Below are positions 12,801 through 59,112 of a stretch of DNA of 64,000 nucleotides, in pieces. The stretch is taken from assembly GCF_000003815.2 (NCBI RefSeq), contig NC_049979.1, positions 17,840,401-17,904,400 on the forward strand. The letters are read 5' to 3'. The notes under the pieces are model-generated. The model was not told the origin of the DNA. It saw nothing but the letters and a program-made list of their open reading frames with translations, and made no database searches. This stretch comes from Branchiostoma floridae (Eukaryota > Chordata > Leptocardii > Amphioxiformes > Branchiostomatidae). The position numbers were made by a program, and so were the translations under genes. Position 1 is the first letter of the stretch. Each line of letters begins with the position of its first letter.

Positions 12801-14901
12801 AATCATTTTTGAAATGCAGTTTAACTATATTTGTAATGTAATTATAAATATGTAATCATAAAATGTAATTATAAATAATGTACGGTGTATAAACCTTACC
12901 TGCATCTGCTGTTTATACTCCACAACCACCTCCTCAATGGCCCTGCTCCGCATGAGCTGTATGGTGTTCTTCCAGGTGTTGTCCAGTGCAGGGATGGCCT
13001 TGGGGTCATTGACCGCTTCCACATACTGCTTGGCCATGATGCTGAGGGCCACACCTGAGAGAAAATATTTCATGTATGCTTGGTGATTTTTAATCAGCAA
13101 GACTGCCAACACCTTTGATGGGAAACATAGTTATTTGGCTGCCACTTACATTGTATGATAAAGCAAACATTATTCATATTGCTTCTGAAACTGATATATT
13201 TATAACTTACATTGATTCCTCTCTCTTACTCACCACTGACAGTTGACCCCTTGTCATAGCCTCTCTTGGCACGTGATTTTAGAAGCAGCCGTTCAATGAG
13301 GTCCTCCACACCCTTGTTGAACTCTGGGTTCAGGTTGCCGGTGTGCTGAGCAATGTTGTTCATTACCTCCTTCTTCTCAGAGGGCCGCTCCAAGGTGGCA
13401 CACTCCACTGAAGAGAAGAATGTAAGGATGGCCCGTCCTACTTTGTCACTGGTTGACTCATCAAAATCATCCTCACCCTGACGTCCAAGCACCTAAGTGT
13501 AGAAGGTATTTTGTATCATTACAACTGTGTAATTCAAGCAAACCACTGAGAACAGCCAGCAAGTGCAGCCCTAACTGATGCAACCACCTGTTATACCAGT
13601 ATCCTTGATCAACATTTAGGGATCGGCAAAATTGCAATTTGGCTTTAAAACAGTGTTTTAAGGCCTAAATTGCACACTTTAATAGCCACAAAAACCTGAC
13701 ATTTTTATGTGCAAGAACACCTATGATTTTTTAAAAACCTATGCCAAAGCTGTAACATCTTACCAGTTATTTTGAAGTCATACCATCATCTTCCACCAAC
13801 CACTCCTTCCTGACAAGAATGAGACACTGCATATTTCATATCTTACCCTAGTCTTCAGGTACTCTGAAGGATCCATGTCTACACCATCCTGGTCAGTGAT
13901 CATCAGAGAAACATCTCGCAGCAGCCACAAAAAGTCTGGGAAGAACTCACGGAAAGCTGACATCTGTGTCTTTTCTCCTTTTTTAACTGTGATCCCCTTA
14001 GCCAGCTTAATGAAACACCTGGTGAGATTTAGAATGCGAAACATGTCAGTGATTCAATGTAGATATTTTGAATTAAATGATTAGTAACCCTGGCCACTGT
14101 GAAAATGTTAACAGCAAAAACGTTTTTGTTGTTAGAGACCAGCTTCTTTGCAATGGTACATATAATGACTAGTGAAGGTCGAAATGTTGTTAGCACAACG
14201 TGTAACATGTTTCAGTATAGTCAATGTACTTACTGCATCTTCTCCAGATCTCCCTTATATGGCACATTGAGGGAGTTGTAGATGAGTAGGGAGGACAGCA
14301 GGATAGTCATCACCAGGATACTGGCATCCTGTTTGGCACTCGCTCCAGCCGCATCTGGAGTTTTTAGGTTTGCTACTTTAGGTTTGATTCTTTGTACTCT
14401 ATGACACTACCCTTTGGGTATAATTCTTACTTTGAGCTGACAAAATTTGTTCAGCTGGCCTAAACAAGAAAAGAACTTCATCAAAAGAAGTAATCAGAAG
14501 AAAAATCATCACACACTTTATTTGATAAAGATTAATCCAATTCCTACATTACCAGGTATTGTTTTCCATACACTTATACCTTTTGTACGGAAACTTATCA
14601 AATGTTATGTACATGTACCTAGCCTAGAGTAGTCCCAAGCTTACATAGTCTACAGAGCAAGCCTAACACGTGCCCTCTAGGCTAGCTCACCTACCTATGC
14701 CTTCTGTGTCCAGCAGCACGATGGTGAAGTCCTTCCCCCTCAGCACACTGGTGCCCATCCAGATGCCAAACGTCTGGGGGTCCATACGATGGCCTAGCTC
14801 AAAGGCATCTGCAGTGCCCAGTAGCCTATCCCGGATAACACCAGTGTGAGATTTTAAGTATGCATAATCATAGTCGCTAGAAAATTATGTTTTCAGTAGC
14901 A

Positions 14902-14943
<42 letters not shown>

Positions 14944-16100
14944 TGTGTGTCTGTGTGTGTGTGTGTGTGTGTAGTCAACCAGCATAACTCCATCTCCATA
15001 ATGCCTATATGGATTGTCTTGATATTTGGTACGTGGATAGGTCTTGATCAGTACATGCAAAAAAGTGAACTGAAACTGAAAGTCTAATGTCACTGAATGC
15101 TTTTGAACATATCTATTACCAACATGTTGAAAATTGATTCTGTAAATTAAGGTACATTAGCATATTGCACATTCTTTGCATTTACCTATCCAAAAGGCAC
15201 CTTCACCTACAATATCCACCTTCTCCTACGCAGAGGGACCACAGTCGTGTCGAAACTCCTTGTGGTCGAGTTAGCTAGCCGTTGTGGACCGTGCGTAGGA
15301 GGATGCAATATCCATAACATGTACAGTTACTTAAGTGGCATTAATTAGTAATTGATTATGCAACCTAGATCCTCATCAGAATACAGGAGATAACAATATC
15401 TCAAGAGATACAGTGTTATATACCCAGTTTCAAACATAGGAATAGCCCGAGAAACCATGTGTATTTCTATGCCGCTTATCGGCGTTCACTGTGAAGGCCA
15501 GTCGTTTCGATCATCTGTCTCGCTTTATGCACCCCTTTTTGCTGAATGGTCTGCGCCATTAAGTACTGTTATCGAGATGTTATTACCATACCACGCCAAG
15601 GTTCACAGTTAATTATCAACAATTCACAGCCAGCCTCTTCTTTCAGTTGCCTGGGTTTCTGCATACTACGAGCAAATTTAAAGAAGACTCTGAAAATAGA
15701 TTACCGGCGACAGAAAGCAGTTGCGAGTGACCGAAAGCTTGAATGCGGAAGTGACACTGCTGAATACATAAGTAGCTTAAAGCTTGCAAGCTACATATTG
15801 GCAACATTCAATGTAATATTACCTGGACAGGATGTAACTTTTACCGCTCCGACATGGCCCACAGATTGCGAGTGCGCTCACGGGCTGCTCGATCCCCTCC
15901 AGTAGGTCCAAGGCCTCGGGAACAACCTGCAGGGTCTCCCGCCGCGCGCCCTGCACCTTCTCAACTGCACCGGTGGACACATTGTACTCCAGATCGTTGG
16001 GCAGAATCAGTGGGATAGCCGAGCCGTGGACGGCCTTCCCACCTGCCTTCGGCTTCAGTGCCTCGACTTTGAAACCGTGCTTGGAATGTAGCCCCGACAT
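9840..16100 (-). CDS. Guanylate-binding protein-like large GTPase with CaaX box (GBP-a)
   Basis: This is a dynamin-superfamily GTPase of the GBP type, which in vertebrates assembles on pathogen membranes. Fourteen coding exons: 15823-16100, 14695-14825, 14234-14354, 13847-14018, 13234-13492, 12900-13054, 12619-12680, 12333-12490, 11868-12036, 11488-11674, 11076-11234, 10786-10881, 10203-10323, 9840-9883. All phases agree, giving 703 residues; human GBP1 has 592. Seen: P-loop GPCRSGKSY (about residue 81), switch region QTFGIWMGT, G3 motif DTEG, and the GBP-type G4 motif LLRD in WLLRDVSLMIT. A helical region and a long Gln/Glu-rich coiled coil (exons 10-13) follow. The last exon encodes VVNVPSPSRCSIM and stop, a C-terminal CaaX box (CSIM, farnesyl type by its Met). 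Head to head with GBP-b. Not assigned to a vertebrate paralogue because GBP genes expanded separately in each lineage. Confidence 0.93.
14903..14972. repeat. (TG)n microsatellite
   Basis: About 70 bases of TG dinucleotide repeat with two TCTG interruptions lie in intron 1 of GBP-a. Open frames through it are artefacts. Confidence 0.97.
15223..15304. repeat. Small hairpin MITE-like element in GBP-a intron 1
   Basis: CTCCTACGCA at the left pairs with TGCGTAGGAG at the right, and the pairing continues inward (GGACCACA with TGTGGACC). The whole unit is about 80 bases and can fold into one imperfect hairpin. There is no coding potential. Confidence 0.65.
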
Positions 16101-16237
16101 GTTAACTGCAACAACCTGGCCACACAACGGTCTGCTCTGCCACTGTCACCAGCCGAAGCCTATTCTCTTCCTCTGGGCGCTTTACCGAAACTCTGCGACA
16201 GTTCCCCTTTTATATCAGATCCGTAAACATATAAGCC

Positions 16238-16247
16238 GGGGATTTCC
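16238..16247 (+). promoter_or_regulatory. NF-kappaB-type site upstream of GBP-a
   Basis: GGGGATTTCC matches the kappaB consensus GGGRNNYYCC exactly and lies 138 bp upstream of the GBP-a start codon. A 10-bp match with this degeneracy can occur by chance. Its weight comes from the promoter position and the second match near GBP-b. Confidence 0.5.
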
Positions 16248-16843
16248 AATGATTGCACTATGCCCCATAGTGAAGGGCAGCAATGAGGTTTCCCAGTAAT
16301 CGCCCCTTGATTTATTTGAATAATTTGTTTGGCCCATGATAGTTTCACTATGTACACCCTCGTCTGAAGTTTGCGCACATCATTAGAATTCCTTTCCATA
16401 AGAGTCCCCCTATACAGAGCTGTAAAATTACATGCATCTTCCCCAGTTATAAATCTAAGACCGCATATCGACTCCTTTGTTCATACAATGAGTCATCCCG
16501 AAAAGTCCCTGTTGAAATTCCCCTTAAATGGTCGATCCGTTTGAAAAACGGGACGAAATACTCCTCAGTTGCCGAATAACACTTTTCAACATCATGAGGT
16601 CGCAAATCTAACGCCTACGAGTAAATCACACTCTAATCATAAAGTTTCTTTAAGATAGTTAGTTGGTCTCACATTTATGACCTTTGCAACCATAATGTTA
16701 TATGCTAGTATTCAAGATATTATAGTACGAGTTAAGTTTTGATGATTCATTACTGAGAAGTCCCCAAAGTTTCACATCCAAGTGTTGCATGAGCTATGAT
16801 GATAAAGCCGTTTTGCCAGATGGCCCCATGCCAGCCTGAATGT

Positions 16844-16855
16844 GAAAGTGAAAGT
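16844..16855 (+). promoter_or_regulatory. ISRE / IRF element 1
   Basis: GAAAGTGAAAGT fits the ISRE consensus GAAANNGAAASY at every position. It lies 346 bp upstream of the GBP-b start codon and 744 bp upstream of GBP-a. In vertebrate GBP genes such elements bind IRF1 or the STAT1-STAT2-IRF9 complex. Confidence 0.65.
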
Positions 16856-16886
16856 AGAAGCTGAAGCCACCCAGTGACTCCGAAAG

Positions 16887-16894
16887 TGACGTCA
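16887..16894. promoter_or_regulatory. CRE palindrome
   Basis: TGACGTCA is the full cAMP-response element recognised by CREB/ATF or ATF-Jun dimers. It sits between the two ISREs, so an ATF/Jun-IRF composite enhancer similar in content to the interferon-beta enhanceosome is possible. That comparison is inference. Confidence 0.5.
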
Positions 16895-16904
16895 GTTTAT
16901 TGGC

Positions 16905-16916
16905 ACTTTCAGTTTC
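16905..16916 (-). promoter_or_regulatory. ISRE / IRF element 2
   Basis: On the minus strand this reads GAAACTGAAAGT, again a full match to GAAANNGAAASY, in opposite orientation to element 1 and 50 bp from it. It lies 285 bp upstream of the GBP-b start codon. Confidence 0.68.
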
Positions 16917-17041
16917 GGAGGTCTGGTGTTTTCATCTTGTGTGGGTTGCAAAATCCCAATTGGAGTTTCCACTGGGTTGTAACGAAAGTTGTTCATTTCT
17001 TGACTTAGGGTAAAGGTTCTGAGCAGGGGAAATTCAGTGCA

Positions 17042-17051
17042 GGGAATTCCC
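17042..17051. promoter_or_regulatory. Palindromic NF-kappaB-type site upstream of GBP-b
   Basis: GGGAATTCCC is a perfect kappaB palindrome 150 bp upstream of the GBP-b start codon. A related half-like sequence, GGGGAAATTC, lies just upstream at about 17026. Confidence 0.55.
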
Positions 17052-17200
17052 CTGTTTGGCGCACTTTAGACTGTCGCACCATTGAGATCATTGAGAAGTC
17101 ACAAAAATCCCCCGCGCCAGGCTAGTTCCGCTTTTGCTCCAGCACAGCATTGATAAGAGCAGAACCGAACGCTTTCAGTCGTGCTTGGGGCTTCTGAAGC

Positions 17201-20200
17201 ATGGCGGCGCAGAGGAACCTCTCCGTCGAATCCCTCGGTCAGAGCCAGTCTATCCCACCGTCTGTACCTCTGGTCCTGCCCAATAACCTGGAGTATGACC
17301 TCGGCACGCACACCGTTCGGCGCAAGCCGGGGGTGGAGCGGTCGTCCCTGACGGTGGTGGCGGAGGCTATGTCGCTGCTGGCGAGTATTGACGACCCGGT
17401 AGCGGTGGTGGCAGTGACGGGACCCTGCCGCACGGGCAAGTCTTACATGCTGTCCCGCATGCTGGGGTCCTCCGACGCCTTCCAGCTGGGACACTCTATG
17501 GAGCCAGAGACTTTCGGGATATGGATGAGCACTAAGGTATGTTTCATCAAGGACGTTACATCCTTGGTTTCATAGCTCATTAGGAGGCTGATTCTGGGTG
17601 TCGTCACGCCGCCTAGTCTCATGATACAGACTAACGTTACTAGTAGCAGTAGTAACGTTATATACAGACAATTTTAGACTAGTAGTGATTGCAGTTGTTG
17701 CCTTTTATTTCACCGGGCATATGATCCTCAGGTGTTGACACGTGACGGGTTGACAGTGGTGTTGTTGGACACGGAGGGTATCGACGCCGTTGACGCCGAG
17801 GCCCGAAACGACGCCTCACTTCTGGTCCTGACCATCCTGACCTGCTCCCTGCTTGTGTTCAACACCACGTCTGTACCAAAACAGGGCCAGTTGGAAAAGC
17901 TACAGTGAGTCATTGTGACCTTTGGTGTGTTTGCTTTGTTACCAGGATCATATTTAATGTATGGCGGCATTGTGCGCAATGCACGTTTCTATATGGTTTC
18001 TGAAGAGAGCCTCTAGTCACAGGTGGAAGCCTGTACTACTACTCACAGCGCTACACCTGTCCCCGTGCGCCACAGCCAGGTGGTCAATTCACTCAATTTT
18101 ACAGGATAACCAATCAGAGGAGTTATGCAAATGGCACATATGCTAATGAGGTAGGGGTTTAAAAGGCGGAGATATCCCTCCATCATCACCTGTCTGGCCG
18201 GCGCGGGGGATGGGTGTGGCGTTGTGAATTTTTCCACTGTTCCAGACATCCACAATCTAAAGTAAATGAAGCGTTTAGTTGACATGCACAATATAATCCC
18301 AGGTAAAACCGTTTTTTTTCTTGTTGAATGGGTCCGCAAAAAACGGACCGCTAAAAAAAAAGTGACCGGACCTTGAACCAATTAGCAACGAACAGATTAT
18401 ATTGGCAGGCGTTCACAAGGTGCTAAGTAATGTCTAACATGCATTGGCATAATACCGGTCATAAGCCTTATACCGGTCGATTAAAAATAGTGGAACTTAA
18501 AGAGATCTACAATTGCAACAATAATCATTTCTGAGGTATGCACACTTCAGACATCTAGGTGTCCAATACATAATTTACAAAGCATCGATAACAATGCATT
18601 CGAAGACAACAAGGCCAAAAGTTTTCAGGTCATTTTCGGGGCAGGCGAGCTCGTCGTGGGACAGACACACTGTCACGTTCATCGCCAGATTTGTAAATAA
18701 TAATCACATGTGCTCACGGCACAAGACGAGCATGATTCAACAGCAATCTTGAATTTCTTTTGGTGACCTACAACTCGTGTAAAAGTGTGAGGAACCGTTG
18801 CATTATCGCCCGGATCTACGGCTGAATGGGTCAAATTGAACGTACGCCGCCATTTTCCCGCCATTTTTAATGCTACGGCCAGCAGTAAAGTTTTACGTCA
18901 TAGCGGTTGTGACGGACCAAAATTAAATGAAAATTCTTGTCAGTATACGCCCATTTTCTCATGACTTTTTGTATGCTCATGCAGATTTTTGTTTTGTGCA
19001 ACTACTAACAGGAAAGAAAGGAACAACAGAGGATGTATCAAGGTACATAGCGGCAGTTAATTGTGCCGTGTTTCGTTCGGCCGGTATAGTGCACCCCCTT
19101 CCAACCACGCGCCCGTTCTCCGTGCAATTCCGCGGTGTGTTCCAATTACGATATTATGTTTTTAGCAGGACCAGAGAGACAAAATAATTTACACAGAAGA
19201 AGTGGCAAAGGTAAGCTGTAACAGCAACATGTAACTGGAGAAAATGATGCGTTGATCATTTGCCAAATTAGCATTGCTTGAGAAATTGCAGTAAACCGAC
19301 CGGTATTATGCCAATGGATGTTAACAGTTACCAAGTTTCTACTGTCAAACTTAGCGTTAACTGTGTTTATATGGATTTCTAAACTCCAATGGGTGTCGGA
19401 TACCCCACCAAACAGATTCCTTTCTAGCGAAATGGACCATTTTTTTTAGAAACGCCCATTTAAACTTTCCGGACAGTTAATTAGGTTCACGGATCCGGAC
19501 CGGTAACTGATCCTCTGGACCCAAATCTGTACCTTAATTTTCTGTACCAGTACCCTCCCCTAATCTCAGGCGTTAGAATGTAGATGCTCACTTGCAGAGT
19601 TCTTCACGCACCTAGCTGTTTTATCTTTTTGTAGATGCTTTGCCGAGTTAGCAGAGGCGGTCCGTATTTGGAAAAGCGGCGAGATGGACCATGAGGAGTT
19701 CAGCCGTCATTTTCCCGATCTCCTCTGGTTACTGCGGGACTCCACTCTCATACCGACAGACGAGGACGGCAACCCCATAGATGCTCGGAGCTACTTGACT
19801 GTGAGTAAAAGTACAAATATTGCAATAAAACTGAATATAAGGCAATGTATTGTAAAGTTGAAACGAATGTATTGTAGGATAGAGGTGTAACTAATTTGCT
19901 ACTGCCTATTCACTCTATCCTGACAGAAGAGGATCCTGAAAGAGAGCGGTCGATTCAGACCGACACCCAGCGACATGGTCAGCCGGGCCATCACCAGTTT
20001 CTTCCCCAGCCTGGACTGCCGGACGCTCCCACCTCCGTCCAGCGACACGACCGTCATGCAGAACATCGAGACCAGCCATGACAAACTGGACCCTGAGTTC
20101 AACCAAGCCATGGAGGACCTGGTGAAGGACATATTGTCCTCTATCAAACCCAAGCAAGGCTTCGGACAAGGTACATGTACTTGAAAATCACCCGTGAGGA

Positions 20201-22815
20201 ATATAACGGTTTAACAAACCGTTGACGACGTACATGTTGTCCACCTACGTTCGATACCGATATCGTTTTCATATGGCCCTGACATTGTTACAACTTTAAG
20301 TTAATAACGCACCTAGATCTACATTGATATTAAAGATCGTTATAACTTATTTTTCCATACAAATGTCTCCCAGGAAAGACAGTTACAGGCCGTCAGCTGG
20401 CAGGCCTTGTGCAACAGTTCGTCGCTGCCCTGAACGACCCTAGGGCCCTGCCAACCCTACAGACCGCCTGGGACGCCGCCCTGATGACGCTGGTGGAGGA
20501 CACCGTGCGGGAGCTGCAGGAGCGCTATGTACAGGAGATGCGGCAGGGAATCCAACAGGCTGGCGGCATGCCGCTGGAGGAGGGTAAGCTCAGAGACATT
20601 CTTGTCTGTGTTGGCACTAACGGCTTTGTTTGGTTGATTCTTTCGTGTTACAACTCGACCAGGTATCAACATTGTTCATTTCTTCAAGAACCTCAAATCA
20701 GCACGTCGTGTAGAAAACAACATAGTCACAAGAAAAGTGAAGTTGTAATGATACAAAGTAACAAAATTAATGTACAAACCATCACCTTATTTTATTATGA
20801 ATAACATACTCATGATACGTACAACATGCTGTCACAGATCCCAACAGCAGCGTGCCATCTATGATGTCCCTGCACCAGGCTGTGTTTGAAGGGCTCCTGG
20901 ACACCCTGAAGGGTCGGCTCCACAGTTTTTGTGAGGCGGCCGAGATGACACAGGCCGTAGTGGATTTGACAGCTCGCGTCAATGGGACCCAAGGCAAGTT
21001 TCGTTTGTAATCTATCTTAATTCCCGATTTAATACTTGCAAAACCTAACATTGACCATGTCAGCAAACTATCATTCAATTACGTTTATCTCCATATAGAT
21101 GACAGCGGCTGTGGGATCTTGTCCAGCCTTCTGAGTGAAAACCGCAGCAGCTCGGAGAGTTTCTGTAATCAGCTGATACAGAACCTTTACCAGCCCATCA
21201 GCGAGAAGCTAGCCTCTCCGCCGGACAACTACGATATCAAGGTCGATCTAAAAGAAAACTCTCATTGAAAGGAAAATAGATTGTTGCAAGTTCCATCATA
21301 CAGATTTTATAAACAGGCTATGATAAACAAACACCGTTTTTTATGCATTAGATATACATGGTCTTAGTTTATCATGCCATAATTTTGAGCATCCCAAAAC
21401 TTAAAGACTCTGGTGCTTAACATGAGAGTTATGTGATTTTTCCAGGCTCTTGAAGCTGACCTGGCGCAGCTGAAAGCGACATACGACGAGGAAGCTAGAG
21501 GGCCATGCAAGCACAAGGTTTACCTGCAGTTCGCAGAATTCCTGGAGGGACAGAAGACGACATTTTCCACCATCAAGGTATCAACATCGCATTAATCATG
21601 ATGGATATTGCTACAGTAAGTAAAACAACGTTGGCATTAACATATACCCTCCGGTGTAAGTAAAAGAACGCTTGCACTTACTTATTCCCTAGATCACTGG
21701 CATTCCCTGCTGGAATGACCGAAAAGACTAGAAATGGGAATACATTTCTACTCAAGCCTATACCATATTTCTATACTCATTGATAATGGGTGAATGTCCA
21801 ATCAGGGTTACCAAGAGGAGGATTACAAGCTACAGGAGGAGACACGGCGGCGGGAGGCTGAGGTGGCCAACCTGCAGGAGGAGAGGCTGCAGGTGGAACG
21901 CCAGATGGCGCTGTCCATGAAAGAGCAGCAGGACCAAGTGGAGATGTTGATGGCGGAGTTTGGACGGGAAGTGCAGAATCTGAAAGAGGAAGAAAAGTAA
22001 GTTGATTTTTGAACCAGCCAACAGAAACTTAAGCTACAGAAACAACTATAACAAACCGATGAGAAATTCATACACTGAAATATTGGCCACGCTCCAAAGG
22101 TGACTAAATTACATTTGATATCACGTATTATCAAATACATGATTTCACCGAAATTGTGCGCAACAAATAAATTCAACGACGTTGTTGTTTTGTGCAGAGA
22201 GCGCCGAGACGCCATGTTGCGGAACCTCCAGGTGCAGATGGAGGAGAAGGCCCAGCAGAACGTGGCGATGCTGGAGGACCTGTCCCGCCGCCAGGAGGGC
22301 ATGGTGCAGCAGCAGATGGAGGCCATGCAGCAGCAGCAGCGCCAGCAGATGGACGGGATGATGGAGATGGCCAAGGCCATACAGGAACGGAACGACAAGC
22401 TCGCACGAGGTTTGTGGTCAACATCAGACTCGACAGTCAGTCAGTGCATATTCACTCATAGCGACATAACATTATCGTTAACGCTGACGTTATCCCGTAG
22501 GGACACAGTGATAGACCAAACTTTTATCTGCAACCCATTTTATGTGACAACATCTCTTTGTGATGTCCGAATTGCTTAATTCTTGTAATCAATGTGTTTG
22601 TGTGGATTTCTTCAGATATGCAAGAACAGGCACAGAAGGCAAAGTCTCCGGGGTTCTTGGACAACATATTGGGTTCCGTCGTTGACATCGTGAAGCAGGG
22701 GGCTAGTCTGTTCCTCATGTCCAAGTTTCCTCTTGCGGGCGCTGCCGCAGCCGTGGGTGCGGGGGCAGCCCAGGCAGTCACAAGTCGCACCGCAAAAGCA
22801 CCAAGCACTAAATAG
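17201..22815 (+). CDS. Guanylate-binding protein-like large GTPase with hydrophobic tail (GBP-b)
   Basis: This is a second complete GBP-type GTPase. Eleven coding exons: 17201-17536, 17732-17904, 19635-19800, 19927-20170, 20374-20583, 20838-20993, 21099-21241, 21446-21577, 21806-21996, 22198-22409, 22616-22815. The 720 residues have consistent phases throughout. Seen: P-loop GPCRTGKSY, switch region ETFGIWMST, G3 DTEG, G4 LLRD in WLLRDSTLIPT, then the helical domain and a Gln/Glu/Met-rich coiled coil (exons 9-10). The C-terminus has no CaaX box. It carries a hydrophobic stretch containing GASLFLMSKFPLAGAAAAVG and ends in a short basic tail, suggesting direct membrane insertion or an amphipathic anchor (inference). 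Exon 6 ends in a GC donor (AAG|GCAAGT), which phase requires. Intron 2 holds a transposon. Divergent neighbour: GBP-a. Confidence 0.93.
18436..19322. mobile_element. Non-autonomous DNA transposon in GBP-b intron 2
   Basis: Terminal inverted repeats of 25 bp at 18436-18460 and 19298-19322 match with one mismatch and share CATTGGCATAATACCGGTC. The roughly 890-bp interior has further ACCGGT-containing fragments but no transposase frame. True ends may lie slightly further out, where weaker similarity continues. Confidence 0.75.
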
Positions 22816-24050
22816 TGAAATGTTGAAATATTCTATACTTTTAAGTTTTACCTTTGTAGAAAAACGTGGTAATTATATAGTATTACCTGCTTTATCGCAT
22901 AGTGTATTGCTTAGCGTGGTATGAAATCCGAAACATGGTCTGACTTACTGCTTCAGTTCTCCAAGTCCAACCTGTTGTCGTGTTTATGATGAATCTGTGC
23001 CGCGAGGTAGATACGGGGTATTTGTTCCAATATTTCCTGGAAGTAGGTTTACAACATGTAAAGTAAAGTAGCACAGTACTCGGAAGTGAAATCAGCCATG
23101 TGTATGTGTGAATTTGCATTGTTATGAATTTACTGCTATTAAAGTACACCTCAACAAATGATCCTGCTCAAGATGGTGCTCGTGTTTACCAAAACCATGT
23201 ACCCGGTAAGACAGAAACGGCGCACGAGACTTTTTCTCATGATCAGCTGGCACAAGCTTGAAAGGGAGTGGTAGGTTTACACGAGATCATTGGCGAAGGC
23301 TATAGGGACAGCCTGATTGAATCGTGGTCGGCCCGTCTTCGACGACCGCCGCCCCCTGTGGTAAGAGGCCGGCTATGGTCGTAGACACAGCATTTATCCA
23401 AGAGATAAACGTCAGTTTTTTAAACTTTTTTGTCGAATTAAGATGTTTAGTTTGTGTCATGATGTAACGTCGTAATGTTGATTCAGTAGTTCTTGCTGTT
23501 GATTAGACACATACGAAACTTTTATAATTATTATTTCCTCCGTTGTTATTACTGTCATTTTTATGCCATGTTATGTTGACTTAGATTATTTTGTTGTCAA
23601 CCTGAATTATATGTTACCATTCTAATTATTAGTTATCTTTGTTAATTTTGACTGTCATTTGTTATTCTGTTATTTTGACCTACATAAGCAAGTATTTTAC
23701 TTTGACCTACATAAGCAAATGTGCTTCTTGTCCATCGCTCACTTAACGAATGTGAATGAACTAAAATAAGATGAAATGAGATGAAATAAGATAAAACAAA
23801 ATAAAACAGCAAAACAAAGTAAAATAAGATAAAGTAGAAATAAAAATAAATTGTTAAGTTAGAATATAAATTAAATTAGAAAATAGAATAAAATCAATCG
23901 GCGTAAATCTGCGCCTGAATACTGGTCAATTTTTGTAGGAGAAAAAGTATAGAATAGTTAGTACATTTGTCCAGACAATAACACCACTAACGTTAAATGA
24001 CCTCTTAAGCGACAATAATGTCTTGCCCTTGCCCTACCCACACATAGCCC

Positions 24051-24098
24051 CAGACGACTGTTGCTCTCGAGCTATAAGCGATAACCAACAGTCGTCTG
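24051..24098. repeat. Perfect 13-bp hairpin
   Basis: CAGACGACTGTTG (24051-24063) is exactly complementary to CAACAGTCGTCTG (24086-24098) with a 22-nt loop. There is no U-tract or coding context. It may be a MITE remnant or a structured RNA. Confidence 0.7.
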
Positions 24099-24177
24099 CG
24101 GCTAACCCATACAATATCCCAATAACCCAATAACCGAAAAAATATTATGAAAGGAAAAGGTCACGATTCTTCCCACC

Positions 24178-24196
24178 AACCTCTGCTTGGAGAGTA
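24178..24196 (-). mobile_element. Solo terminus of the fold-back element found at 56790-57089
   Basis: Nineteen bases, AACCTCTGCTTGGAGAGTA, are identical to the right end of the element upstream of the TRIM-NHL gene. No partner terminus was found nearby, so this looks like a decayed or truncated copy. Confidence 0.55.
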
Positions 24197-24767
24197 ACGT
24201 TACCAATAACCATCGGATATCGGAAATAACGCACGTCTACACTTTTAACAATACTGGTTTATTGTATAAATGAAAATAAGCCCACGTCTGAGGTCGAAGA
24301 ATACGGTATTTAGTCTATTAGTTGTACTAGTTTAGGCGAAGCCAAAACCAAGACACTGCAGGATCCTGCAGGGGTTTTCGGATAATATTTGTAACAAGTT
24401 TGAAACAACAACAACTATTTCAAGTAAAATGATATTTCAGTTGCACTCATTTAAAACTGCTGATACAGTTGATAATGAAAGTTTGAACATGTTTGAACTG
24501 ATTCACATATGTTGTACACAATTTGAAAGTAACTGACAAAGAAACAGGTTATGTCTAGGTCATTCACCTTTGACCTATGTACTCTCACATGGCCGGTTCG
24601 CAGTCACAGAGAGCGGATCACTCTTCCGTAGCTGTCCGAAGTTGTCGAAAGGAACGAGCACCAACAGAGCTTCAGAACACCTTTATGCCTGATGGTAGGC
24701 TAGATATTAAACGTCATATCTCTAGAGACTCTGCGATTGTTGGACGTAGAATACTTTGACGTCTAGC

Positions 24768-27333
<2,566 letters not shown>

Positions 27334-27529
27334 CCTTGTGCAAACTTATCAGCGACATGGACATTACATAGCTGTCTGTTAAAAGGATACAGTTGACATA
27401 CAGACTTTTAATTGGCAAGTCCCAATCTGAACTGTAAATCCAACACAAAACATGGCACTTTCCAAATCCTGATGTTTGTGTTACAGTACAAGAATGGCTA
27501 TGAAGATCAGATAAATGAATATTTGTCTG

Positions 27530-27535
27530 AATAAA
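27530..27535 (+). terminator. Probable ENOPH1 polyadenylation signal
   Basis: AATAAA lies 197 bases after the ENOPH1 stop codon, the first canonical hexamer in the 3' flank. A second candidate, AATAAA near 28001, could serve a longer form. Confidence 0.5.
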
Positions 27536-30154
27536 GCAGTCAAAAAGCAATCAAGCAGGCTTGTCATCTTCAATTTAGCCTCTTTCTTTTGCATTCTGCA
27601 TAGTTTGGATTACGTATGTTTTTGCTCTATATACTGTTTTGCTGGCCGCAAACTGTTTTAAGAGAATAACTCTTGCCTACAGGATAATTAAGACTTGCTT
27701 TTCATGTCAGGGCACCTGGACTGAATGTTGTGAGCATCAAATACAGAAATACCGTGTTCTAGGTAGAGAGAACTATAAGGACTACGGACTATGAACTAGA
27801 GAGCTGGTACTGAAAAAGTCTTGGGGGAGGGGTATTGACTGGTACAGAGAATGGAAGTCTTCAACCATCACGTTGTGCATGACAAAATGCAGTGAGGAGT
27901 ATTTTCAAACCAATGTCTTGCCCCTTATCTTTTCCCTGGAGCAGTCTGTGGAAAATACTATGAATGTAATGCAATGCAACATCCATCTCTGCACAGTTCC
28001 AATAAACCCATCAAACGTACTGTTACTGTGACTTTTCTTGTCATAATTTTGGTGATGCTTGAATCTATGATCCTTAAAAAGGGAGTTTTGACAATTATCA
28101 TATGAATCACTACTAGGTTGAAACTTTGCAAATTAGAACATTACAGGTACTTTGACAATTTTTTTTAACCAACTTTTAGTTTTTACATTCAAAGTGTCCT
28201 ATATATTCAAACTAATTGCTGCATGGAAATTGCCATATGGTCATAGCATAAGTAAGGTTTTGAAAGCATATTTTCAGACATAGGATAGCTTGGTTCTACT
28301 TACATCCTCTTATTAACAAGGGCTGTAGTGTGAAGAATTTTTCACAACTGAAACAGTAACAAAATCATGACTCAGACACTTTTCTTTGGTCTTTCAAACA
28401 TTTATATAACAAAGTCTTTCCAGTTACAGTAGCAGTGGCTGCCATGATCATGCAATTGAACAGGCGGAAGGCTGAGGGAAGCGAAGGCACACCGAAGTCA
28501 TTGCCAACCAGCAGGGACAGATGCTACTGTAAAGAGCCACTGACTGACCAATTCCTGTCTCAACTGAAAACTGGGCATATTGCAACACATGGATGCAAAT
28601 ATAATGACAGGCAAGGGACTAAGTGTTTTAACTGGAAGGTGTTTGAGTCTATTAATGTTGAAATTATGAGTACCCTCCATCATAACATCTCTACATTGAG
28701 TAGTGCAATACAGAAATGTTAACACTCAACAGCTTTCCGACTTAACTTACAGTACGTTTCCATAAACAGGTAAGGAAAGCAGCTCGCTGTTGTCAGGTAC
28801 ACCAACAGATGTAATGGACTACCAGTCACGTAAATAAACATAACTTACTTATTTGGGAAGTCTTCCAAGTCTCTATACTTGTGAGAGTCCCATGCCTGTA
28901 CAATTGATTTGCCTTACATGTACTTGGTCTAACATAGAAATGAAAGGCACTATCATTGTTGTCAAAACCTTGAAGACCTATCCAAGCCACAACCAACACA
29001 GGAACAAACAGAGAAGAAAAACGGGCAGAGAAACTGTCAACGTCGGTTTTGAGAACATGGATCTTGTTGCTCCATTTCAAAATTCAGGAGGGGGTGACTC
29101 AGACCCTTAAATCTTATCTACCATATTTACATTTTTGCACAAGTACTTTTTAACAATCCCCAATCAATTATTTAACTCCTTCATTTAAGTAAATGAAAAT
29201 GCACCACATCCTGCATTGTTTTATCTGTTTCTTCGAGATCAAGCTTGATCATTTTTTAACCCCTCCAAAACTTTGAACAGTGGACATGCTCTCCACGGAC
29301 TGTGCCTCCCATTACTAGACAAAGGGACTTTGCTGAAAATATTGAAAGTTCTGTAAAATACAAAGCAGCTTTACATTTGACATCTTTTAGGAAAGTTCAG
29401 TCTCTTAACTGTCATTTATACTTCTTGTAGGTTTCAGAAACTTTTCATCTAATCAGTTATACATGAGTATTTCTGTATATCCAGCATCAGTACAACAAGA
29501 AATATCATTTGCATTTTGTTACCTTACATTTGTAAATGCTTCCCTCTTACTGGCTAGCAATTGCATGTGTTCAACATAACAAAGGAGTTGATGTATTCAA
29601 ATGAACAAAGGCAAAACAAATGTAACTAGTTAAGTATTTGTGTAAAAGAAGTATTGATACAAGTACTGTCCTTCCTGGCCACAAAAGCTAGCATACTGGG
29701 CATGAGTACCAAGTCATAAATACAGAACAAGTTCAAGTGACCAAAGCTATAGTAAATCTGCAACTTTACAATTACCATATACTGATCTCTAAAGGCCCCT
29801 ATGTTGTTATAGTCATCAATTATCATAGGTTATTTGATTGCTATCTACAAATTAAGCAGGCAATAAAGGCTCAAAGACCAATCCTCACATTACATGGGAA
29901 AGGCAGTCCACTTTTTTGCATATACACCTTCTTAATATATTTGTATTGGAACATCCCATCCACACCACAGTTATCATTAGCCCACAGCAGCAAACACTAT
30001 GGCACAGACATACAGGTACACTGAACAAACCCATGCATCTTCCAGCACATGCACACTTGTTTACACACTGCATCCACAGTCTCTACGCTTCTTGTATGTT
30101 TTTGTCCGAAGCAACAATAGTAGTAATCAAGGTGGCTAGAAAATGGAGTCAACA
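27536..30154. other. Convergent intergenic region, ENOPH1 and HECTD1 3' ends
   Basis: The two genes face each other tail to tail here. A 95-codon open frame at 28435-28722 has no recognisable domain and no splice support. I see no RNA gene or clear repeat. The HECTD1 3' UTR must occupy the right part. Confidence 0.5.
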
Positions 30155-57089: not shown

Positions 57090-57176
57090 CAAATGAGTGA
57101 CATTTCGCCTGTGTGACGATGTGAAACCTGTGTGTTGTCATCACTGGTAAAACCTGTTCCATCACCTTGAATTATC

Positions 57177-59112
57177 ATGGCTACCACACAGCAGTACGAG
57201 TCAAAGTTTAGGCAACAGATGAGAGAGGAATTCCTCTCCTGTAGCATCTGTACGGATACTTTCAAGAAACCGAAAGTTCTGCCCTGCCAGCATACGTTTT
57301 GTTCGACCTGTCTGCGAGATTGGGCCGAAGCGCGCAAGCCCTTCCAATGCCCGATGTGCCGTGTGTCAGTGGACCTGCCAGCTCAGGGCGTGTCGGGCTT
57401 TCAAGACAACCGTCTTGTGGCCGAGCTTTGTGAGCAGTTCTCAGACAAGCTTTCCACAAGTCCACCGAAGGCTGAGCAACGTAACCAAGGCAAATGTTAC
57501 TTCCACCCAGGGCAGGACATAGCTTTGTTCTGCCAGCAGTGCAAGATGCCAGCCTGCAACCACTGCGTCAACGAGAGGCACACAGGCCACACGTTTTGGA
57601 GTGTGGAAGAAGGGGCATTCCAAAGAAAGGATGTATTCGCGAGCTTGATCACTGACAGCCATCGATTCCGCGAGACGATCGTTGGGAAGCTCCAGCACCT
57701 TGAGCACGGAGAGAAAAGGCTGAACCAGCAAAAGAAAGAAGCTGACGAGGGTGTCGCAAGGGTTGTGGCTGACGCAATAGCGCAGCTACGCAGCTCCGAA
57801 AAAGTCCTGCTGTCTGAGATTGACGAAAACTACCGTCAGAATCTTGGACCCATCAAACAGAAGCACAACGCACTACTCGCGCAAGTTGCTCAGCTCACAG
57901 AGGCATGTGACGCTGCACGGCTCTCCCTGAGTCAGGGGGGTCGCGAGGCCCTAGGGCAAGAGGCGGCCCTGCACAAGATGCTATCGAGGTACCGAACCGA
58001 CCCGTCGTCGCAGCTGGCGCCCATACAAGCACAGGTTGTCACCTTCCAGCCAGCTACCATCGACCTCCGCAATCAAAAGTTAGGCAACCTTAGTCTCCAG
58101 TCATTCANNNNNNNNNNNNNNNNNNNNNNNNNNNNNNNNNNNNNNNNNNNNNNNNNNNNNNNNNNNNNNNNNNNNNNNNNNNNNNNNNNNNNNNNNNNNN
58201 NNNNNNNCTCACTCCACAGACAGGTGGATATAGCCACCGTTAAGTCCGGGTCCGGGTAGCCCAACAAGTCCGGGGCCGGGTAGCCCAACAAGCCCAGGTC
58301 CTAGACTAACCATCCCGGGGATAGCTTCAACAGGTGCGACTGTTTCCCGCGCTCGTAATAACGAGGTGTACATCACCGACAAGAGGAACTGCCGGATCCT
58401 GGTCTACAATTTGCAGGGTGCCCATATCCGCCATTTCACCACTTCTGTTCCAGGTGCAGCCGGCACGGAGGTGATGGGGCCAGATGATGTCGAGGAGGAG
58501 GAGGCAGGGAACCTCTGGGTGGTGGGAGTTATCGACAAAACACGTGACCAACTTGCCGTGCAGTATGCTAAAGACTGCAGCTTCGTCAGCAAGATAGACC
58601 TGAAGCTGAAATATCCATCCTCGAGCCTAAGCATAGCCGTGAACAAGAAAAAGAACTACATCGTCCTGCCGTACGACGTCAGCCGTGACGCCGTCAACAT
58701 CTGTAAGCCGAACGGTTCTACTGTTCGACACGTCGGTGGCGGGAAACACGGCGTTAAGCATGCCAGTGGATTCGCTGTGAACAACGATGGAAACATCTAC
58801 ATCTCCGATGATGAAAACCACAGCATCTTCGTGTATGACGGGAAGGGGAAATTCCTGTTCAAGTTCGGTAGCTACGGTACCGGTGATGGTCAGATGAACC
58901 AACCCCGTGGCGTGTGTACCGACACATCCGGCAACGTCGTCGTGGCAGACACGGGGAACCGCCGTGTGGAGTTGTTTGACGCTAAAGGGACGTTTCTCCG
59001 TCACATCAGCGCCAACATGAATGCTCCCGTTGCAGTAGCAGTGGGTCAGCATGGGCAACTGGTCATCAGTGACATTGGGAACAACGCCATATCTGTTTTC
59101 GACAGGTACTAA
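57177..59112 (+). CDS. TRIM-NHL RING-type E3 ligase, interrupted by a gap
   Basis: This is a RING-B-box-coiled-coil protein with C-terminal NHL repeats (TRIM2/3/56/71-like class), likely a cytoplasmic ubiquitin ligase. The 5' frame (57177-58107) encodes a C3HC4 RING (CSICTDTF, LPCQHTFCSTCL, CPMCRVSV, about residues 22-62), a B-box 2 (CYFHPGQDIALFCQQCKMPA, CVNERHTGH, about 107-146) and a coiled coil. After the gap (58108-58207) the frame changes. The continuing frame, open from 58234, encodes a Pro/Ser/Gly linker made of a 24-bp tandem repeat. NHL-type repeats follow (NNEVYITDKRNCRILVYNLQ, GNIYISDDENHSIFVYD, GNVVVADTGNRRVELFDAKG), stop TAA near 59110. The frame break is probably the arbitrary gap length or an intron rather than a pseudogene. 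Amphioxus has many such genes, so no orthologue name is given. Confidence 0.85.
58108..58207. other. Assembly gap, 100 N, inside the TRIM-NHL gene
   Basis: This placeholder gap of unknown true size lies between the coiled-coil and linker-NHL coding parts. The first open codon of the downstream frame follows a TAG at 58231-58233. Confidence 0.99.
58241..58310 (+). repeat. 24-bp tandem repeat in the TRIM-NHL linker
   Basis: Two nearly identical 24-bp units starting AAGTCCGGG, plus a diverged partial third, encode repeated SPGPGSPT in the linker frame. Such a repeat could expand or contract and may also explain why the assembly broke just upstream. Confidence 0.75.

Follow-up and report, generated by a model that had tools for sequence, protein, structure and literature searches.

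The 1.1 kb of DNA between two divergent GBP genes of Branchiostoma floridae contains two full ISREs facing each other head-to-head, an exact CRE between them and NF-kB sites proximal to each gene, and we somewhat favor the view that IRF and Rel factors use it as a control region inducible by immune stimuli. Together, the IRF, CRE/ATF and NF-kB matches suggest that GBP genes could be placed under the control of infection without interferon.

Two divergent GBP genes

The window, by which we mean the whole 64,000-nucleotide stretch analyzed, is G000:C1:17840401-17904400 of a genome totaling 513,431,437 bases in 431 contigs; positions given without a contig name are those of the window. The ATGs of the divergent pair lie about 1.1 kb apart, at 16098-16100 on the minus strand for the left gene and from 17201 on the plus strand for the right gene.

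12828..16100, minus strand: left GBP gene, the exons that entered the family test, with a continuation to about 10183 assigned by eye
17201..22812, plus strand: right GBP gene, exon 1 at 17201-17539, later exons assigned by eye

Both flanking genes are GBPs, as a preliminary description of this DNA had proposed. With exons joined by eye (up to 21592 for the right gene), the GBP N-terminal GTPase domain (PF02263) scored above its cut-off in both, at 3.7e-46 for the right and 1e-40 for the left. The GBP C-terminal domain (PF02841) was found in the right gene at 1.5e-6 (28.3 bits against a cut-off of 24.3), and the left gene, for which the model is partial, gave 23.6 bits, slightly below that cut-off. 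Among solved structures the right protein matched GBP1 best (7.3e-38, versus 1.5e-9 for atlastin-1). The right GBP is followed by an enolase-phosphatase (ENOPH1-like) gene at 24800-27330, recognized by eye.

ISRE, CRE and NF-kB sites between the genes

The sites that we discuss below are the following, the last of them lying outside the intergenic region:

16207..16214, minus strand: TATA box TATAAAAG of the left GBP
16238..16251, minus strand: CATTGGAAATCCCC, a CCAAT-like plus NF-kB block in the left GBP promoter
16844..16855, plus strand: ISRE 1, GAAAGTGAAAGT, an IRF-type site, exact pattern match
16887..16894, no strand assigned: CRE/ATF palindrome TGACGTCA, exact pattern match
16905..16916, minus strand: ISRE 2, GAAACTGAAAGT (CCGAAACTGAAAGT with flanks), exact pattern match
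17042..17051, no strand assigned: palindromic NF-kB site GGGAATTCCC, preceding the ATG of the right GBP by 150-159 bp
15072..15083, plus strand: a third full ISRE, GAAACTGAAAGT, within intron 1 of the left GBP gene (gene assigned by eye)

Two perfect ISREs and an exact CRE between the GBP genes had been described before, and pattern matching located all three, with a gap of 49 bp between the head-to-head ISREs and the CRE inside it. The CRE is joined to an IRF half-site, giving GAAAGTGACGTCA at 16882-16894. Distances from the ISREs to the start codons come to about 285-357 bp for the right gene and about 744-816 bp for the left. The palindromic kB site, the kB/CCAAT-like block of the left promoter and the TATA box, which lies about 23 bp beyond that block, were absent from the earlier account. 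We found no GAS-like (STAT1) sequence TTCNNNGAA in 16101-17200, where 0.29 are expected by chance, so that its absence does no more than fit a reading that does not involve STAT. At 57266 the window has its fourth full ISRE, inside a RING/B-box/NHL-like coding frame (gene assigned by eye); this TRIM-like reading frame, also delimited by eye, occupies 57171-59109.

The preliminary description had further called the gene pair an operon-like unit. We rejected this idea, taken as one transcript or a shared core promoter, because the genes lie on divergent strands at the distance given above, each has its own proximal kB site, the left gene has its own TATA box, and the ISREs are unequally distant from the two starts.

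Chance expectation for the sites

The motifs proved non-random for the region: in 3000 dinucleotide shuffles of 16101-17200, at least one full ISRE appeared in 57 and at least two in none. The whole combination of sites was likewise absent from all 3000, since two ISREs already were. The CRE appeared in 36 of these shuffles, the palindromic kB site in 4, and at least three kB positions, the number observed, also in 4; two of the three observed positions overlap. At the scale of the window, at least one CRE occurred in 53 of 100 shuffles of the 64 kb, and a CRE alone is thus unsurprising there. The four full ISREs of the window compare with 0.56 expected from dinucleotide shuffles and with 1.3 expected from the genome density (P=0.04), which is one per 50.2 kb (10,229 in 513.4 Mb). 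At that density the probability of two or more in 1.1 kb is 2.4e-4, a value for a single region that is uncorrected for the number of promoters.

Genome-wide, ISREs were not enriched, the backwards control having 12,297 matches and the motif itself 10,229. Head-to-head pairs separated by 20-50 bp gave 8 forward matches at 6 places (the five other than ours assessed by eye only), versus 28 in the backwards control and 1.6 expected if sites were independent. We therefore rejected ISRE pairing as a genome-wide signature, head-to-head pairs being rarer than their backwards controls. Direct pairs numbered 135 forward and 163 reverse, versus 46 and 76 in the control, and among the first 100 places listed were mostly repeats of the GAAAAGG, GAAAGGG and GAAAGTG type. 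A dispersed GAAAAGGAAAGT / GGAACGAAAAGG repeat (for example at loci L004 and L032) is the source of many full ISRE matches, and naive motif enrichment in this genome would consequently be misled. The CRE/IRF fusion GAAAGTGACGTCA, considered as an immune signature, occurred 71 times versus 29 in its control, with local clusters, and was not adopted as one. Taken together, the shuffles and pair counts mean that two ISREs are locally improbable and that the pair by itself carries no genome-wide signature.

These counts bear on one alternative, that an intergenic stretch happened to match degenerate motifs and was picked out by a reading with GBPs in mind. By our arithmetic, several regions with two ISREs are expected by chance over 20,000-30,000 promoters, and this, like the head-to-head count below its backwards control, speaks for such an explanation. 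It is at odds with the local shuffles, with the ISREs found upstream of other GBPs and never downstream of their first-exon starts, and with a kB block that is held in place (both described below), and we think it improbable.

ISREs upstream of other GBP loci

We collected GBP loci with PF02263 (23 exon matches) and with the N-terminus of the right GBP (35 exon matches, 30 of which were taken up as loci). The 21 loci retained were those whose match resembled the first GTPase exon, with the window pair counted as one upstream region and 19 others; later exons, second matches to the same gene and the loci at C1:10.38-10.39 Mb, taken for putative atlastin, were left out. For each locus, turned to its gene strand, 1.5 kb of upstream DNA was scanned.

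The 27,507 bp upstream of the 19 other loci contained 8 full ISREs, distributed over 5 loci. Half of these were of the repeat type GAAAAGGAAAGT and all in L004. The other four occurred one each at L045, L003, L005 and L006 (4 of 19 loci), versus 0.55 expected (P=0.0024, for paralogues that are not independent because they share ancestry). No full ISRE was present in 32,715 bp downstream of the same loci, coding DNA included. Fourteen of the 19 had no full ISRE in their 1.5 kb, a stretch that may be intron for some: the open frame before the match lacked an ATG in 6 loci and had only a distant one in 2 more, so that in these 8 the DNA called upstream may be intronic. Masked bases amounted to 558 in L007, 335 in L037 and 100 in L040. 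The best-scoring paralogue exon of the right type (L035, C143:495392) has four kB-like GGGACTTYCC sequences spanning about 300 bp, 1.1-1.4 kb upstream, possibly a repeat.

A second GBP branch comprises seven genes, five on C206 (a 197-kb contig), one on C13 and one on C6. The C13 member has GBP2 and GBP1 as its closest solved relatives and is 35% identical to the right window GBP over 64 residues. ISREs at GBP genes beyond the window pair recur in this branch, where the same ISRE, CCGAAACTGAAAGY, lies upstream of three of the seven genes. Several promoters of the branch carry CTTTCAGTTTCGG, identical in its bases to ISRE 2 taken together with the flank. This sequence is found about 240 bp before the match and about 190 bp before the ATG in L005 and L006. 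In L003 it is about 1 kb upstream, where a 30-bp block is 96.7% identical to that of L006 and shifted by about 750 bp. The corresponding block of L002 (the C13 gene) is missing one base and hence has no full ISRE, and L004, L007 (partly masked) and L009 had no CTTTCAGTTTCGG-type site in the stretch examined.

Because CCGAAACTGAAAGY, like YATTGGAAATYCCC below, was chosen after the alignments had been viewed, its genome counts (12 in 513 Mb versus 11 in the backwards control) are descriptive and not tests. One of the 12 lies in the window, four on C206 and seven elsewhere, and four of the 12 are upstream of GBP first exons, ISRE 2 of the window included. The fourth C206 site, CCGAAACTGAAAGC at C206:135939-135952 (L064), has flanks like those of the GBP ISREs and no GBP exon within the 2.2 kb examined. 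By eye, no immune pattern was seen beside any of the seven sites outside the window and C206. A single site falls inside an LRR-like coding frame. Another has an ADP-ribosylglycohydrolase-like frame (17.6 bits, below the cut-off of 26.2) at a distance of about 1 kb, and a third has a frame resembling methionyl-tRNA synthetase (by eye) at about 0.8 kb; no gene was recognized at the other four.

An NF-kB block kept in place in left-type promoters

We compared the upstream DNA of three left-type genes, the left gene of the window and those at C167:105934 and C167:118052, in which the exon ATG stands at the same place; the comparison was restricted to these because the first exon of other similar relatives seems to be further upstream. 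A ATTGGAAATYCCC block is found at -150, -156 and -155 from the ATG in the three genes, while the rest of their upstream DNA aligns poorly. Its pattern YATTGGAAATYCCC, whose counts are descriptive as stated above, has 15 matches genome-wide versus 6 in the backwards control, and 3 of the 15 are these left-type promoters. A/T-rich, TATA-like bases are visible by eye near the corresponding place in the two C167 paralogues. Nothing in either of them could be aligned with the ISRE pair. Single ISRE-like sites occur elsewhere upstream of the C167 genes, the core GAAAGTGAAA at -639 (L042) and the full ISRE GAAAATGAAAGT at -491 (L045), both relative to the match. With the ATTGGAAATYCCC block in place and the ISRE region aligning poorly, NF-kB is the positionally kept element in the left-type branch.

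NF-kB (Rel) together with the TATA box might be the real driver, with the ISREs an incidental or species-specific decoration. The block kept in three left-type promoters, the palindromic kB site 150 bp from the right ATG and the lack of a shared ISRE pair among left-type paralogues all fit this alternative, which would nevertheless leave unexplained why two full ISREs occur in a region where none of 3000 shuffles had them, and why an ISRE recurs in another GBP family within a conserved block. We consider it rather unlikely, though well short of negligible.

IRF genes and the response to poly(I:C)

The preliminary description had credited amphioxus with IRF genes, and we indeed found about 10 IRF-domain loci (grouped by hand) in the same genome. 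One IRF DNA-binding domain (C13:4114018-4115254, PF00605, 1.3e-33) is separated by about 11 kb from a first GBP exon, C13:4102857-4103153, on the same strand (L002, L063, L072). Given about 20 GBP loci and about 10 IRF loci in a genome of 513 Mb, chance would bring one of each this near together in about 1 of 100 genomes, by arithmetic done post hoc. A physical linkage of regulator and target is possible. Against a direct link of this kind counts the lack of any full ISRE in 2.0 kb at the C13 GBP (L063) and in 3.7 kb at the C13 IRF (L072). A search with PF00143 (type I interferon) gave no match in this genome and also none in the control genomes. The preliminary description had called amphioxus apparently interferon-less, which agrees with the excerpted text of PMC5752451, where interferons are said to have gone unidentified in the genome of B. 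floridae.

IRF2 shares the sites of IRF1, and the sequence of ISRE 1, GAAAGTGAAAGT, presumably also fits PRDM1/BLIMP1. A repressor or a different factor, PRDM1/BLIMP1 or IRF2-like, might thus occupy the ISREs and keep the GBPs low until release. The excerpted text of PMC5752451 offers such a reading some support and speaks against simple induction, since in B. belcheri treated with poly(I:C) a GBP5 has a log2 ratio of -10.75 (IFI44, -9.66). This GBP5 was among the 15 most down-regulated genes there. On the other hand, IRF1 and IRF8 of B. belcheri are described in the excerpted text of PMC10155998 as ISRE-binding activators whose action on the GSDME promoter is exerted via motifs of the IRF1/RelA type, and repression through these sites seems to us a slim prospect.

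A candidate control region without an interferon step

We prefer to regard the 1.1 kb as a putative immune-inducible control region because of the ISRE pair never matched in shuffles, the kB block in place and the excess of ISREs upstream of other GBPs, to which the second-family ISRE, the roughly 10 IRF loci and the reported activity of B. belcheri IRF1 and IRF8 (PMC10155998, in excerpt) can be added. Weighing against it are left-type paralogues without the ISRE pair, the 14 of 19 loci without a full ISRE, ISRE and head-to-head pair counts that do not exceed their backwards controls, and the drop of a GBP5 after poly(I:C) in B. belcheri (PMC5752451, in excerpt). If the control-region reading is right, pattern recognition would lead to binding of IRF1/8-type factors to the ISREs, Rel to the kB sites and an ATF/CREB/AP-1-type factor to the CRE. 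The bound factors would together increase transcription primarily at the right GBP, given how close the ISREs are to its ATG, and the region would perhaps act as a distal enhancer for the left GBP. This logic would be nearer to that of a direct IRF/NF-kB target than to that of an interferon-JAK-STAT target, as it would contain no interferon-STAT step.

That IRF control is older than interferon is plausible and has largely been anticipated in print: in its excerpted text, a review of IRF1 (PMC7819612) notes that IRFs, unlike interferons, are widespread among invertebrates, and it speculates on control through IRF elements without interferon. GBP expression is treated in another review (PMC9005921, in excerpt), which points to a 2009 source. 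Among the papers listed by our searches of the open-licence literature, no title or abstract opening described an amphioxus GBP promoter. More tentatively, and with some doubt, IRF-to-GBP control may be an ancestral chordate circuit, with interferon inserted later, in vertebrates, upstream of an existing IRF/NF-kB-to-GBP wiring. We raise this because two anciently separated GBP families, located on different contigs, both have CCGAAACTGAAAGY, and because one GBP lies near an IRF gene. If the sites work, amphioxus GBPs would offer a precise promoter at which to ask what IRFs controlled before interferon, and the answer would bear on whether interferon was an addition to an older circuit running from pathogen sensing to a cell-autonomous GTPase. 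Since the ISRE recurs in a second GBP family, this question can be tested at several promoters and not just one.

Comparison with known systems

The IFN-beta enhanceosome assembles ATF-2/c-Jun, IRF and NF-kB on about 55 bp. The three classes of site are common to both systems, and in amphioxus the CRE is fused to an IRF half-site; unlike the enhanceosome, the amphioxus sites extend over about 210 bp (16844-17051), and the target is an effector and not a cytokine. Promoters of vertebrate interferon-induced GBPs carry an ISRE plus a GAS. The amphioxus region resembles them in that full ISREs precede GBP genes by a few hundred bp, and differs in having no GAS-like site and in holding its ISREs inside a divergent pair. 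It differs also in that interferons are not identified in amphioxus, according to the excerpted text of PMC5752451.

Among invertebrates, the poly(I:C)-responsive genes of Nematostella offer a parallel. The portion of PMC8476169 examined names GBPs among the genes detected after poly(I:C), reports IRF, STAT and NF-kB motifs as well as a higher abundance of TATA boxes among up-regulated genes, and finds no significant change of GBP1 on knock-down of RLRb. That system differs from ours in being cnidarian and in providing genome-wide statistics, and the same portion describes no GBP promoter. Another related system is the B. belcheri GSDME promoter, which is acted on by BbIRF1/8 and slightly by p65 (PMC10155998, in excerpt): it too belongs to an amphioxus immune effector and combines IRF1 and RelA motifs, and differs in that those motifs were tested by reporter assay and pull-down, whereas those of the GBP region are predicted from sequence. 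The DNA between the two GBP genes is thus a predicted immune promoter of the IRF/NF-kB type, in an animal group for which such control is documented for another gene.
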